Part shown: positions 353 to 9,411 of the stretch, piece after piece
How the letters are laid out: each line of letters starts with the position of its first letter
Numbering within the stretch: the first letter of the stretch is position 1
Assembly: GCA_018992685.1 (NCBI GenBank)
Contig: JACVGT010000021.1
Span: forward strand, 81,748-145,747
DNA from: Theionarchaea archaeon
GTDB lineage: Archaea > Methanobacteriota_B > Thermococci > Methanofastidiosales > SZ-28-30
Length of the DNA: 64,000 nt
Direction: 5' to 3'
Translations under genes and position numbers: made by a program
Notes under the pieces: generated by a model
Told to the model about the DNA's origin: nothing
Seen by the model: the letters and a program-made list of their open reading frames with translations, nothing else
Database searches by the model: none

Positions 353-1223
353 CCGTTGCAGCCTCCTTTTGAAGTTGATCATACATTCTATTTAAGATTT
401 GAGTGACTGTCTCCTCTAACGCTATATTTTCCAGAACCGGAACCCTCTCTCTATTAGCCCTCCCTACGATGTGGTCTTGTATCTGCCTGATCTTGTCAAT
501 ATTCTCAAGGTAGTGTTCTGGAGGTCTTCTGCTGTCCTTTGCTCGAGCATAGAACCTGTTCACGTGTTCCTCTCTGTCACTGAGGGTAAGAACGAAATGA
601 AATATCGTCCGATCCTGACGTTCAACATACCCAGGGACAAGATGAATTCCTTCCATTACAAGACTGAACCCCTCGGTCAGTGCTCTGTTGATTATGGCAT
701 TAATCCCCACAGCAACATGAGATACCTGAAGCTCAAAAGCATAGATCACTGCACTCAAAAATGAAGAAGGAGCCTGAATTTCTTTCCATGCGGAAAATGA
801 GGACGTGTGAAGAGTGGGGAGTAGATCCCGTGAGACCATTTTCCGCATGACCTCACGCACGACGTCTGTCCCAATAATGGAATGAATCCCCAGTCGATAG
901 CTGATTTCAAAGGCTACCGTAGATTTCCCGATGCCTGTGGCACCTCCCAGAAGAACAACAAGTGACTGTTTTTTCTTTCTCAGTGAATGCCACATCTGGT
1001 AGAACGAGGCGATACGTGGGTACCCGTCATCTATCAGGATGTGGTAAGTCATGTCAGTGAGATCTTGTTCAGAGATCCGGGAGATTCCTGAGGTCACCAT
1101 TCTCTGCCCAATTTCCTCTGCCATTTTGTAGGCCCTGTTCACATCCAGCCCTGCTTTCAACAAAGATCCGGCCAGGACACCCTTTGAAAATGGAGTTACA
1201 TACTTCTTGCCTACTACTTCTAT
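345..1223 (-). CDS. 2-phosphoglycerate kinase
   Basis: The product matches archaeal 2-phosphoglycerate kinase, which makes 2,3-bisphosphoglycerate from 2-phosphoglycerate for cyclic 2,3-diphosphoglycerate synthesis. An N-terminal ATP-cone-like segment (IEVVGKKYVTPFSKGVLAGS) precedes a P-loop kinase domain with Walker A GGATGIGKST near residue 90. The first ordinary start codons in frame (TTG at 1166/1163) would delete the conserved start of the ATP-cone. The frame stays open and family-like back to about 1223, where an ATA overlaps the TAG stop of the upstream gene (ATAG) and follows a purine-rich GGAGGGG sequence. I give 1223 as the likely N-terminus, but no canonical start exists there; the conservative start is 1163. 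It lies between cDPG synthetase and the CBS gene on the same strand. Confidence 0.85.
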   Translation of the reverse strand: MEVVGKKYVTPFSKGVLAGSLLKAGLDVNRAYKMAEEIGQRMVTSGISRISEQDLTDMTYHILIDDGYPRIASFYQMWHSLRKKKQSLVVLLGGATGIGKSTVAFEISYRLGIHSIIGTDVVREVMRKMVSRDLLPTLHTSSFSAWKEIQAPSSFLSAVIYAFELQVSHVAVGINAIINRALTEGFSLVMEGIHLVPGYVERQDRTIFHFVLTLSDREEHVNRFYARAKDSRRPPEHYLENIDKIRQIQDHIVGRANRERVPVLENIALEETVTQILNRMYDQLQKEAATDE

Positions 1224-2566
1224 CGTGTGATCCCCTCCTCAGCCTTTCTTGCCAGCTGGACAATGGCATCCTCCAAGCTGGTGACAGTTCCTCCTCGAAG
1301 GCGGGGAACGTTATCCATGAACACGACATTGCGGTCGAATTTCAAAGCCTCTCGCGTGGCCACATCAATGGCAGAGGCCTTTATTTCAGTAAGGAGAGTA
1401 TCTGCCTGGGGAAGGAATTGGTTCAGGTCTTTCTTTAATCTCGGTCGATTAGAAAGATGGGGAGAAGCCTTTACTATTTCACAACTGAAGGTTTGTTCGA
1501 GGTAGGGTACCAGAGTAGATTCCAGGACTGAGGGGGGCGCCGTGGTAGCCAGGAATACTTTTCTACCTGAAATGTCTTTCAGGGGTACCGGCCTGAACAC
1601 GCAGTGTGCCTGGGGGAGTTCGGGCTTGATTTCACTAATTGCTTTTTGCATCTCTGCCACTTTTTGCGGCGAAGCCATGGGTTCTTCACACATCATGAGG
1701 ATGAGCAGATCGGCCATGAGAATTCTAAAGGGACCGAAGTACTCGTTGATGAATTCCAATGGTTGATGCGCTCCTGCAATCACGATGCAGCAATCTGTAT
1801 TCACAGGAGGGAAGGTGGTGCCTGACCCCTCTAGTATTACGAAGGTTGCTTCCAGTGTATTTGCCAGTTGGGCTCCTTTTTCCATATTAGATGAAAAAGG
1901 AACTCCAGCCATTCCACCACCACATCGCCTGCATCCGACTGTTGCTACGCGGGAAATAAGAGCATTCTCCCAGTGGTCTGACGCAGCGTGCTTTCCCTGA
2001 TTTGCCTGTTTCAGTAGATACGAAGGAGTGAGTTCGATGGTGTCACCTCTGATGATTTCGGGCTGAGCTGGACCTCCCCTTCCCATCGTCACAATCCAGG
2101 GAATATAACCTGAAGCCTTGAGTGTTCGGGCTATGTATCCCGAGACAGCAGTTTTTCCCACCCTCTTTGTTGTCCCCACCACGGAAAAACTGGGACGTTT
2201 CAGAATCTTTGGGTATCTTGGAGGTGTAAACAGGAAGTCTGATCCCTTGTATTGGACTCCTTCTTTCATGAGCGCACAGGCGAGATGTAACCTGCTGACG
2301 TAGTCCATAATCGGCTCGTCTGAAAGATCCACAACTTGCTCAATCTCATGAGCCGAGCAAGCTGTCACAATAACGTCGTGAATATCTCTTGACTGGTTTC
2401 CTCTGTAGATAGGAATATCAAGATGTGCTGTCAATTCCTCAATGCTACCGACTTTTTCCGTTCCTCCCAAGAAAACAGCAGCTCTCACGTCACCTTCAAT
2501 AGTTGCCAACGCATCTTTCGTTACTGGTGGATAATGTTCGCCGTCTATGAGGGCAAGAATATTCAT
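1220..2566 (-). CDS. cpgS: Cyclic 2,3-diphosphoglycerate synthetase
   Basis: The 448-residue protein resembles cyclic 2,3-diphosphoglycerate synthetase, which closes 2,3-bisphosphoglycerate to cDPG with ATP. cDPG is a solute of several methanogens linked to thermoprotection and phosphate storage. Family-like segments are the N-terminal LALIDGEHYPPVTKDAL, a nucleotide-binding GTTKRVGKTAVSGY near residue 130, and MGRGGPAQPE. ATG at 2566 is preferred over TTG at 2569 because a TATA-like CTTAAATAC (minus strand, about 2587-2595) lies about 25 nt upstream. The next gene, 2-phosphoglycerate kinase, supplies its substrate, which supports the assignment. It is transcribed away from the candidate origin. 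Confidence 0.9.
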   Translation of the reverse strand: MNILALIDGEHYPPVTKDALATIEGDVRAAVFLGGTEKVGSIEELTAHLDIPIYRGNQSRDIHDVIVTACSAHEIEQVVDLSDEPIMDYVSRLHLACALMKEGVQYKGSDFLFTPPRYPKILKRPSFSVVGTTKRVGKTAVSGYIARTLKASGYIPWIVTMGRGGPAQPEIIRGDTIELTPSYLLKQANQGKHAASDHWENALISRVATVGCRRCGGGMAGVPFSSNMEKGAQLANTLEATFVILEGSGTTFPPVNTDCCIVIAGAHQPLEFINEYFGPFRILMADLLILMMCEEPMASPQKVAEMQKAISEIKPELPQAHCVFRPVPLKDISGRKVFLATTAPPSVLESTLVPYLEQTFSCEIVKASPHLSNRPRLKKDLNQFLPQADTLLTEIKASAIDVATREALKFDRNVVFMDNVPRLRGGTVTSLEDAIVQLARKAEEGITR

Positions 2567-2630
2567 CAAATGAACTTGTTTAGTATGTATTTAAGGGTTC
2601 GCTTGAGAAAGAAGGGACTTCTCATACCTT

Positions 2631-2652
2631 TTCCCGTGGAACGAACCACGGG
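2631..2652 (+). promoter_or_regulatory. ORB-like / inverted repeat near cpgS promoter
   Basis: TTCCCGTGGAACGAA followed by CCACGGG resembles a degenerate ORB. It also forms a perfect inverted repeat CCCGTGG-N6-CCACGGG (2633-2639 and 2646-2652). It lies about 40 bp upstream of the cpgS TATA box, so it could instead be a cpgS operator. Confidence 0.4.
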
Positions 2653-2836
2653 CTTGAGTTCTTATATTACTAGTTATTTGCGGACGAGGGGGCTTGGTTG
2701 ATTCTGCTAGTTGAGATGGGGTGTGACGAGGACCGTAAAATAGGAGTGAAGTAATTCGTTAGGAACGGGAAGGTGATTATTGAGTCTCGGAGAGGTCTTG
2801 ATTGATTGTTTTTTGAGTGGCTGCCCTACCCCTTTA

Positions 2837-2856
2837 TTTCCTGTGGAAGTGGGGAA
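2837..2856 (+). promoter_or_regulatory. ORB-like element (second)
   Basis: The site reads TTTCCTGTGGAAGTGGGGAA. It keeps TTCC-N-GTGGAA and a following G-run, has one change in the dyad and a shorter spacer to the G-run, and points the same way as the strong box at 2995. Confidence 0.5.
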
Positions 2857-2994
2857 GAGGAAATGGTCGCTTATGTAGTGATAGAAGAATGAAATGGTTA
2901 CTTGGTTAAAAAAGATTGTACGCTTATAAAGATTCCTAACGAAAATTACTGCGCACCTAGCCGCGAAGTTACTTATCTTCTTATAACCCGTCAT

Positions 2995-3016
2995 ATTCCA
3001 GTGGAAATGAAGGGGG
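2995..3016 (+). promoter_or_regulatory. Origin recognition box (strong match)
   Basis: The site reads TTCCAGTGGAAATGAAG and continues directly into GGGGGC. It has the dyad TTCCAGTGGAA and the downstream G-stretch of the euryarchaeal ORB. It lies about 50 bp upstream of orc1/cdc6, so it may also mediate autoregulation by Orc1/Cdc6. Confidence 0.7.
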
Positions 3017-3065
3017 CGGAGGAAGGCTTAAATAGGTTTATCATGAAGGTGACAACGGTGATACA

Positions 3066-4355
3066 TTGGAGGGTCAGAGATCATTGGACCAGCTCTTTGA
3101 TGAGCTCTTGATTCAAAGGAAGATTTTCAAAAACAAGGAAGTGCTTCGCGACCACTATACTCCCTCACTGCTTCCTCATAGAGATCTGCAAATTGATGAA
3201 CTTGCTACTATACTTGTATCTGTAATGAAGGGTGAGACCCCTTCTAATATCTTTATTTATGGTAAAACGGGAACGGGCAAGACAGCTGTTACCATTCATG
3301 TAGGAGAAGCGTTGGTAAGAAAAGTAGGTGGATGTTGCTATATCCGTCCATATGGAACAAAACTGGAGATAAAAAAGCCGGAAATGCGCATTCCTGTTTG
3401 GCTCATCTACACGAATTGTGAAATTGTAGATACTCAGTATCGGCTGCTAGCAAAGCTTGCAGAGTACATGGGGCAGTCAGTACCTTTGACTGGGTGGCCC
3501 ACAGACAAAGTGTATGAAAGCTTTGTCCGCGCCCTGGACAAAGAGGAACGATTGGTGATTGTGGTCTTGGATGAGATCGATCGACTGCTCAAGAAAGGAA
3601 GCGATAGTGTCCTTTACAATTTGACACGCATCAACTCAGATCTGAAACGAGCCAAAGTGAGTATTATTGGAATTAGCAATGACCTGAACTTCGTGGAGTT
3701 TCTGGATCCCAGAGTGAGGAGTTCTCTGGGAGAAGAAGAATTGGTGTTTCCTCCGTATTATGCCCAGCAATTAGTTGACATTCTTTCCCATCGGGCAGAA
3801 GAGGCTTTTTTCGACAATGCACTGGATCTTGGGGTTATCCCACTGTGCGCTGCATTTGCAGCTCAGGAACATGGTGATGCACGTCGCGCTCTAGACTTCT
3901 TGAGGATAGCAGGAGAAATTGCTGAAAGAGACAGAGCCTCTCGCGTGACTGAGAAACATGTGCGTATTGCCAAGAACCGCATTGAACAGGACAGGGTGAC
4001 GGAAGTCATCAAGACCTTTCCCACCCAATCAAAGTTTGTACTGTTTGCCATACTGCTTCTGGAGAAGTACAATGCTTCAGCCATTACCACGGGAGAAACG
4101 TACAACGTGTACAAGGAACTGTGCAGACAATCAAAGATGGACATTCTCACTCAGAGGAGGGTATCTGATATTATCAGCGAAATGGACATGATGGGGATAG
4201 TGAATGCAACGGTGGTCAGCAAAGGGCGATATGGAAGAACCAAGGAAATTCGGCTGGGAGTTCCAATGAGCCAGGTAAAGAATGTTCTGGAGAAGCACCA
4301 CAAGATAGAACGAATTTCTAACTTTGTACCCCCTATTCAACGAAAACTTGTCTAG
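3066..4355 (+). CDS. Orc1/Cdc6 replication initiator
   Basis: The 429-residue AAA+ protein is the archaeal Orc1/Cdc6 initiator that binds ORBs and loads MCM. Walker A GKTGTGKT is near residue 65, Walker B VVLDEID near residue 165, and sensor-1 SIIGISNDLNF near residue 197. The C-terminal third is the winged-helix DNA-binding region. The start is TTG at 3066; an upstream TTAAATA box near 3028-3035 is suitably placed and no ATG in frame gives the conserved N-terminus SLDQLFDELL. The adjoining non-coding region contains ORBs. No symbol is given because the paralogue number cannot be determined from the window. Confidence 0.95.
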   Translation: MEGQRSLDQLFDELLIQRKIFKNKEVLRDHYTPSLLPHRDLQIDELATILVSVMKGETPSNIFIYGKTGTGKTAVTIHVGEALVRKVGGCCYIRPYGTKLEIKKPEMRIPVWLIYTNCEIVDTQYRLLAKLAEYMGQSVPLTGWPTDKVYESFVRALDKEERLVIVVLDEIDRLLKKGSDSVLYNLTRINSDLKRAKVSIIGISNDLNFVEFLDPRVRSSLGEEELVFPPYYAQQLVDILSHRAEEAFFDNALDLGVIPLCAAFAAQEHGDARRALDFLRIAGEIAERDRASRVTEKHVRIAKNRIEQDRVTEVIKTFPTQSKFVLFAILLLEKYNASAITTGETYNVYKELCRQSKMDILTQRRVSDIISEMDMMGIVNATVVSKGRYGRTKEIRLGVPMSQVKNVLEKHHKIERISNFVPPIQRKLV

Positions 4356-4573: not shown

Positions 4574-4582
4574 AGATAAGTG

Positions 4583-5251
4583 ATGCTTATGATTTCATCA
4601 GAACAACTTCTGGACGTACTGGGAAACGAAACACGGAGGATGATACTGGAACTGCTGGCAGAAAAGCCACGATATACTACAGAAATTGCCAGTTTGTTGA
4701 ATATCGGTCAAAAGGCCATCAATGATCATCTCAAAATTATGTCTGACTTCGGCATAATTGAGACGTACGTCCAAAAGCAGCAGAGAGGTTCTCCTCGAAA
4801 GTATTTCCAGGTCAATGAACGGTTCAAACTTGAATTTACATTGACTCCTGGATTGTTCCGGATTTATGTGTTGGAACCTAGAAGTGATTGGAAATTCATC
4901 CTTGAGGAGTTTCCTGAGTTTAAAGAGCTGCAAAAAGAAGTGGAGCAAATACAGAAACTGAGGCAGATCGAGCAACATCGAAAGGTGTGCAGAGATCTGG
5001 TTCAAGAACTGGATCGACTGACACAGGCAAAAATGTATATTGAAAACCTGCTGGCAAGGACAAGAAAGCGGTGTATGATGATCATAGATTCTCTGGATCT
5101 GCCGCCTGTAGAGAGCAGGGTACTCTTTGAGGTGGTAACTGGAAAAGAAGGTCTCACTGTGGAGGGTATTGCTGAAAAGTGCAAAATTTCTACAGAAGAA
5201 ACTGTACAGGCCCTGCAGAACCTGGAACAGAAAGGTGTGGTGAGATTATGA
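4583..5251 (+). CDS. Phr-like heat-shock transcriptional repressor (ArsR-type HTH)
   Basis: The 222-residue protein has an N-terminal winged helix (SEQLLDVLGNETRRMILELL, then TTEIASLLNIGQKAINDHLKIM as the HTH and a wing near QQRGSPRKYF). A long helical coiled-coil segment (about residues 110-160) and a second winged-helix-like C-terminus (VEGIAEKCKISTEETVQALQNLEQKGVV) follow. Length and organisation resemble archaeal Phr. ATG at 4583 or 4589 is likely, given the TATA box; a GTG at 4580 is also in frame. The stop overlaps the next start (ATGA), and the downstream genes are Hsp20, GrpE, DnaK and DnaJ. A heat-shock regulator role is inferred from context and the operator. Confidence 0.75.
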   Translation: MLMISSEQLLDVLGNETRRMILELLAEKPRYTTEIASLLNIGQKAINDHLKIMSDFGIIETYVQKQQRGSPRKYFQVNERFKLEFTLTPGLFRIYVLEPRSDWKFILEEFPEFKELQKEVEQIQKLRQIEQHRKVCRDLVQELDRLTQAKMYIENLLARTRKRCMMIIDSLDLPPVESRVLFEVVTGKEGLTVEGIAEKCKISTEETVQALQNLEQKGVVRL

Positions 5252-5784
5252 GTGTTATGTTCTGCGTGTATTGTGGGAATTATCTCTCGCAGACATGGCG
5301 GTACTGTCCATATTGTGGGAGGAAAATCTCAGGTGAATCAGAGTTGTTCGATGCTTTGTTCAGGAATGAGGTCAGGGGGATCAGCATTCAAATTATTTCA
5401 GGAGGCTTCAGAAGACAGGAGACGCGAAACAAGGCGGAACGATGGAGGATCCCTATTGAAGAATCCCAGGACAGGAATGAAGAGCATACCTTGAAGGTAA
5501 AGGACAGAAAGGGTGAACGCATCGGGGCTGAATCCCTCGTTGTGCCCAGGCGAGTTGAGGAGCCCGAAGGCAGGATTCACAGAATTGGGCAGCACTGGAT
5601 AATCAGGGTTACTTTGCCTGGAGTCAGGAAAGAGAATATTGATGTACGAAAGCTGGAGACATCAATTGAAGTGAAGGCACACAAAAATGGTGAAGCATAT
5701 TTTAGACAATTCGAAGTGCCAGAATCTGCACGAATCATCTCACAGCACATGGAAGGGGATGAACTCGTTGTAGAAGTGGGGTGA
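5248..5784 (+). CDS. Zinc-ribbon Hsp20-type small heat-shock protein
   Basis: The 178-residue protein starts with a zinc ribbon (CVYCGNYLSQTWRYCPYCGRKI, with CxxC pairs at about residues 5-8 and 19-22). It continues through a charged linker into a short alpha-crystallin-like domain (WIIRVTLPGVRKENIDV, then IEVKAHKNGEAYFRQFEVPE and a final strand DELVVEVG). Small heat-shock proteins hold unfolding clients without ATP. The ATG at 5248 overlaps the regulator stop, excluding a longer start at 5179. It is just upstream of grpE and dnaK. The C-terminal IxI tail of classic Hsp20 is absent, so it may instead be a small-HSP-like cochaperone. Confidence 0.7.
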   Translation: MSVMFCVYCGNYLSQTWRYCPYCGRKISGESELFDALFRNEVRGISIQIISGGFRRQETRNKAERWRIPIEESQDRNEEHTLKVKDRKGERIGAESLVVPRRVEEPEGRIHRIGQHWIIRVTLPGVRKENIDVRKLETSIEVKAHKNGEAYFRQFEVPESARIISQHMEGDELVVEVG

Positions 5785-5785
5785 C

Positions 5786-6364
5786 ATGATGGATAAAAAA
5801 GAGCGCAGTGGCATGCAGCCTGAAACGAATGCCCAGCCTGCAGATGACGAGGGAGAACCCGTATCTGAATCCATTGAGGTCCCACCTCAATGTCAGGAAG
5901 AGATCGATGCATTATGCAGAGAGATTGAGGAACAGGATCGTACGGTGAAGGAGTATCTTTCCACCCTCCAGAGGTTGCAGGCTGAATTCGAAAATTACAA
6001 GAAAAGGGTGGAACGAGAGCGAATTGAGTATACAGAGCAGGCAAATACAGCCTTGCTTGAGAAATTACTTCCCGTTCTGGATAATTTCGAGCGAGCATTG
6101 AATGCAGAGAGTTCTGACATCCACTCATTGAGGAAGGGCCTCGAGATGATCTTCTCGCAGTTCAGAAAGATACTGGAGGGAGAGGGACTTTCATCCATCG
6201 ATGCTCTAGGAGAAGAATTTGATCCTTACTATCATGAGGCCGTCTTGGTAGCATGCGGCGATTATGAAGACGACACTGTTATTGAGGTGCTGGAGAAGGG
6301 ATATATGTTTAAGCATCGCTGTCTCCGGCCTTCAAAAGTTAAGGTGGGAAAGAGAGGTGATTAA
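5786..6364 (+). CDS. grpE: GrpE nucleotide exchange factor
   Basis: The 192-residue GrpE releases ADP from DnaK. It has an acidic disordered N-terminus, a long coiled coil (about residues 35-95, including LQRLQAEFENYKKRVERER), the four-helix region ending LLPVLDNFERAL, and the C-terminal beta domain ending VLEKGYMFKHRCLRPSKVKV, all GrpE hallmarks. It starts 2 nt after the Hsp20 stop and abuts dnaK directly. Confidence 0.95.
   Translation: MMDKKERSGMQPETNAQPADDEGEPVSESIEVPPQCQEEIDALCREIEEQDRTVKEYLSTLQRLQAEFENYKKRVERERIEYTEQANTALLEKLLPVLDNFERALNAESSDIHSLRKGLEMIFSQFRKILEGEGLSSIDALGEEFDPYYHEAVLVACGDYEDDTVIEVLEKGYMFKHRCLRPSKVKVGKRGD

Positions 6365-9411
<3,047 letters not shown>

Follow-up and report, generated by a model that had tools for sequence, protein, structure and literature searches.

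Gap and initiator gene

Does the gap in front of an archaeal orc1/cdc6 gene hold the chromosomal replication origin, and if so, how is that origin built? A locus in a 3.03-Mb Theionarchaea-type metagenome assembly raised this question. We analysed a stretch of 64,000 nucleotides (C6:81748-145747), called the window here, for which an earlier note had proposed a candidate origin with three origin recognition boxes (ORBs), all pointing in the same direction. Our analysis indicates that the gap is very probably an orc1/cdc6-linked chromosomal replication origin of the oriC1 type. The core of the proposal held, with conserved ORBs, the initiator gene, an A/T-rich spacer and a local GGGT skew, but its three boxes of one direction did not. 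The gap (2570-3065) separates a minus-strand gene from orc1/cdc6, the initiator gene beside which the note had placed it and which is full-length. The features of the locus are as follows:

1220-2569, minus strand: divergent neighbour gene, 449 aa, left border of the proposed origin
2588-2600, minus strand: BRE/TATA-like promoter of the divergent gene, GAACCCTTAAATA, conserved in the congener
2634-2653: hairpin CCCGTGG-AACGAA-CCACGGG between the divergent gene and the left ORB, not in the congener
2825-2851, minus strand: left ORB, CACTTCCACAGGAAATAAAGGGGTAGG, dyad 2837-2848, G-run leftward (outward), matrix score 32.9 bits
2852-2992, no strand: inter-ORB spacer, putative duplex unwinding element (DUE), 62% A+T, richest around 2855-2950
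2860-2903, plus strand: two direct repeats inside the spacer, GAAATGGTCGCTT / GAAATGGTTACTT
2993-3019, plus strand: right ORB, ATATTCCAGTGGAAATGAAGGGGGCGG, dyad 2996-3007, G-run rightward (outward), matrix score 34.7 bits
3022-3034, plus strand: BRE/TATA-like promoter of orc1, GAAGGCTTAAATA, as read from the sequence, directly 3' of the right ORB
3066-4355, plus strand: orc1/cdc6, TTG start, 429 aa, with AAA+, lid and C-terminal winged-helix domains

The orc1/cdc6 product matched NF001625 with 601.7 bits (cut-off 501) and TIGR02928 with 440.2 bits, together with the Pfam families Cdc6_C and Cdc6_lid. Its closest solved chains were 2v1u from Aeropyrum (355 bits) and 2qby_A, the Sulfolobus Orc1-1 (349.5 bits). 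These family profiles and solved chains identify the adjacent initiator gene as the Orc1-1 type. The nearest named relative of the window's genome is a Theionarchaea metagenome assembly (L004, the congener below), whose orc1 is 98% identical to that of the window, and many Thermococcales belong to the same class.

Two inverted origin recognition boxes

With simple matching, the dyad at 2996 came out as perfect and those at 2838 and 2631 as imperfect. The gap was then scored with a 27-column ORB matrix trained on 34 sites, all of them from families f2, f3 and f4, with the window and its genus excluded. This matrix gave the right ORB the top score on the whole 145.7-kb contig. This box consists of the perfect dyad TTCCAGTGGAAA from 2996 followed by TGAAGGGGGCGG, and confirms the near-consensus box placed at 2995 in the earlier note. 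The box that the note had described as weaker, at 2837, is real but not weak, and it lies on the minus strand, where the locus scored 32.9 bits against 5.9 bits when read on the plus strand. After these two ORBs, the next scores on the contig were 15.0 and 9.4 bits. Among 20 million placements in first-order random sequence, the null maximum was 21.7 bits and none reached 25.

The gap contains two ORBs of opposite orientation, with their G-runs pointing outward and a 141-bp spacer between them. Since known archaeal oriC1 origins have opposite polarity, the corrected polarity of the boxes strengthens the reading as an origin. The proposed third, degenerate box at 2631 had to be discarded: it scored -11.3 bits on the plus and -7.5 bits on the minus strand, lacks a G-run and has no counterpart in the congener. 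The site is one arm of the short hairpin CCCGTGG/CCACGGG. A plus-strand match at 2006 (15.0 bits), inside the neighbour gene, was taken as chance because 11 matches of this kind occurred in the 20 million null placements and because it is disrupted in the congener.

Conservation of the divergent pair

Comparison of the window with the congener (L004/L025) revealed that most of the gap has diverged. The right ORB and the TATA element form a block of ~43 bp that is identical in both genomes within diverged surroundings, and the left ORB, which scored 29.9 bits in the congener, was retained together with two short spacer blocks. Boxes that stay nearly unchanged in a diverged gap point to selection on the boxes.

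Among the genomes of the order, 18 had a readable region upstream of orc1, the window's own genome and the congener included, and a minus-then-plus box pair was found there in 18/18. Not counted were G009, in which the contig begins within orc1, and two genomes that returned no full-length copy of this orc1. The dyad-to-dyad distance was 157-159 bp in family f1, 153-154 bp in f2, 223-228 bp in f3 and 258-262 bp in f4, so that the 159 bp of the window falls within a range of 153-262 bp across the order. Two f3 genomes carried an additional plus box between the members of the pair. The divergent neighbour varied: f1 has the 449-aa gene at this place, and f3 and f4 encode other proteins there; as the pair remained constant while the left neighbour changed, it evidently travels with orc1 and not with the neighbour. 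When at most one mismatch was allowed, the pattern TTCCANNGGAAAYNAAGGGG was present in 20 of 21 genomes; its reversed form, used as a control, was present in 0.

The strongest boxes of Thermococcales formed the same minus-then-plus pair in 12/12 tested, 275-298 bp apart compared with 159 bp in the window. The orc1-linked origins of the Thermococcales and of the window's order share a constant core of one divergent ORB pair, and they differ in the number of boxes, the distance within the pair and the adjacent genes.

Composition of the spacer

The A/T-rich sequence that the earlier note had placed around 2800-2950 was found there, if modestly enriched, with 63% A/T versus 54% for the whole window. 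The most A/T-rich 100 bp starts at 2850 and ranks at the 97.8th percentile. Across the order, the spacer was richer in A/T than its flank in 18/18 genomes (62-84% vs 55-72%); its A+T content is a modest 62% in the window, 71% in the congener and up to 84% in family f4.

The two direct repeats inside the spacer read GAAATGGT(C/T)(G/A)CTT. The second copy lies within the block GAATGAAATGGTTACTTGGTT, which is identical in the congener in this comparison of two genomes only. The repeats are a possible site for a second factor, which we regard as a weak lead.

Strand asymmetry around the pair

Strand skew was read on the single 145.7-kb contig of the window, the assembly being divided into 45 contigs. 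The cumulative GGGT skew, a measure first used for the oriC of P. abyssi (PMC4010727), was lowest at C6:79432, and the ORB pair lies ~5 kb away, at ~C6:84660. The GGGT contrast between left and right was significant (p = 0.0004, 5-kb block permutation), with the best split at 80000. All three classes of sequence (plus-coding, minus-coding and non-coding) shifted by about +12 to +20 per 10 kb, which argues that the shift is no by-product of gene direction. Plain GC skew on the window's contig was not significant (p = 0.42). Two contigs of relatives were tested: in G003 the GC skew turned 4.5 kb from the pair (p = 0.005), and G013 showed the opposite skew trend. The strand asymmetry lends moderate support to the origin reading.

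Comparison with known origins

In the published arrangement, ORBs of opposite polarity flank a DUE; each ORB binds one Orc1 monomer with fixed polarity, and inverted ORBs orient two Orc1 molecules towards each other on either side of the DUE for MCM loading (PMC6742236). By analogy with these homologues, the Orc1 encoded by the adjacent gene would place one monomer on each of the two ORBs of the window. The two bound proteins would face each other across the A/T-rich spacer, which would melt and receive MCM, and forks would exit both ways. As the right ORB adjoins the BRE/TATA element of orc1, Orc1 bound there probably represses its own gene as well.

The oriC1 of Haloarcula hispanica resembles the window in its two inverted ORBs, terminal G-strings (a C-run in the left box and a G-run in the right), A/T-rich middle and adjoining initiator gene; both inverted ORBs and the G-strings are essential there (PMC3936714). 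The Sulfolobus oriC1 is also similar, with inverted ORBs (ORB2/ORB3) flanking a DUE beside orc1-1 and an initiator (2qby_A) that is a close homologue of the window's Orc1. Both ORBs are essential in S. islandicus oriC1 (PMC12141716). The Sulfolobus origin differs from the window in having three ORBs and also a ucm motif, to which UBP binds (PMC12141716). The repeats in the window's spacer (2860-2903) are not known to be related to the ucm motif.

In the Thermococcales (Pyrococcus/Thermococcus), the oriC carries the same TTCCANTGGAAA dyad upstream of an orthologous orc1 (54-63% protein identity). The Thermococcales ORB continues with AAACTCTGGGG, whereas the ORB of the window continues with AAGGGG. 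Several more ORB-like boxes lie upstream of orc1 in the Thermococcales and none in the window, and the neighbour genes of the two origins differ.

The locus is very probably a further example of the well-known orc1-linked oriC1 type, here with its anatomy corrected. Our literature search returned no described origin for this uncultured lineage. The locus could serve as a minimal origin in which to study how Orc1 directs MCM loading, as a landmark for rotating and closing Theionarchaea genomes, and as a site for reading growth state from metagenome coverage.

Alternative explanations

The BRE/TATA-like element of orc1 is identical in the congener and is an inverted match to the promoter at 2588-2600. 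A TATA-like element stands directly 3' of the right ORB in aligned members of families f1-f4, a position that fits repression of orc1 by its own product. The ORBs might on these grounds be only an autoregulatory operator of orc1, with replication starting elsewhere or by recombination. The case of T. kodakarensis fits such an explanation: the equivalent ORB region can be deleted, showed no marker-frequency peak in one study, and the organism lives without cdc6 (PMC5663688). ORBs beside cdc6 are therefore no proof of use, and stationary-phase oriC peaks were later profiled in T. kodakarensis, P. furiosus and T. barophilus (PMC11005403). For an operator, however, the distant inverted left ORB and the A/T-rich spacer would be superfluous, yet both are kept in all 18 genomes. 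Moreover, the GGGT asymmetry turns within 5 kb of the pair, and a search of the genome yielded no better cluster of ORBs. We consider it improbable that the pair is an operator and nothing else.

The gap could also be the relic of a former origin, with the active origin or origins linked to a second orc1/cdc6 or to another initiator. The genome does have a second orc1/cdc6, on contig C3 (L071:10587-11825), which scored 231.5 bits and thus above the family cut-off, and haloarchaea are known to have dormant orc1-linked origins (PMC4595724). Against a relic stand the boxes themselves, which are nearly the same in the congener although the remainder of the gap differs, a sign of selection. The earlier note had named a stronger ORB cluster beside another orc1/cdc6 as evidence that would speak against this locus; the 20 kb around the second copy contained no ORB (best score 3.7 bits), and no clear repeat array was seen near it on C3. 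These two findings argue against a second origin beside that gene, and a relic is a very remote prospect. The second paralogue may act in regulation and not in initiation.

A third alternative is that palindromic TTCC/GGAA sequences look like ORBs by chance. It would draw on the abundance of short TTCCNNNGGAA-like dyads, with many two-mismatch matches in the window, and it stands as the explanation of the 2631 site; for the two full boxes it is refuted and its probability is next to nil, as both score above all 20 million null placements and are conserved in 18/18 genomes.

Solitary boxes away from orc1

Besides the origin pair, the pattern used above also picked out solitary ORBs away from orc1; the genes at these sites were named by eye from their translations. 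In the window's genome, the top-scoring ORB (36.6 bits) stands alone within the coding sequence of pyrD at C19:39900 (L083:5901-5927). It is the only other strong ORB of that genome besides the pair; the congener contig ends just before the corresponding position.

Family f4 showed two such sites. One lies between oxidoreductase and tgt-like genes in nine genomes (L086, L087, L089, L090, L091, L093, L094, L096 and L097), where the block TGGACAAACTTCCAGTRGAAATAAAGGGG is conserved while the flanking sequence, and even the flanking genes, vary. The other lies just upstream of a CxxC-rich gene and could be aligned in three genomes (L088, L092 and L095). Two sites were likewise found in f3, one in a gap between convergent genes, close to an mrp-like gene, in four genomes (L099, L102, L103 and L105) and one near a glycosyltransferase gene in three (L098, L101 and L104). 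With its single strong box, the window's genome adds one site to this tally.

The location of several solitary ORBs between convergent genes argues against simple promoter control. It is conceivable, though not likely, that in this order Orc1 acts through a small fixed set of sites, made up of the oriC pair and one or two position-conserved solitary ORBs. The latter would serve to titrate the initiator, to reload it or to control individual genes. In such a scheme, the solitary ORBs could be comparable in role to bacterial datA/DARS.

Neighbouring genes

The 449-aa neighbour gene had no Pfam or NCBIfam match; from its resemblance, we take it to be probably a cyclic 2,3-diphosphoglycerate synthetase. 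Beside it lies a 2-phosphoglycerate kinase-like gene, which matched NF003259 with 335.8 bits, just below the cut-off of 343. The gene pair (345-2569) is likely to represent a thermolyte pathway next to the origin.

Downstream of orc1, positions 4580-9411 hold a heat-shock cluster. It comprises an ArsR-type regulator weakly similar to Phr, and zinc-ribbon/Hsp20-like, GrpE-, DnaK- and DnaJ-like genes that were named by eye.
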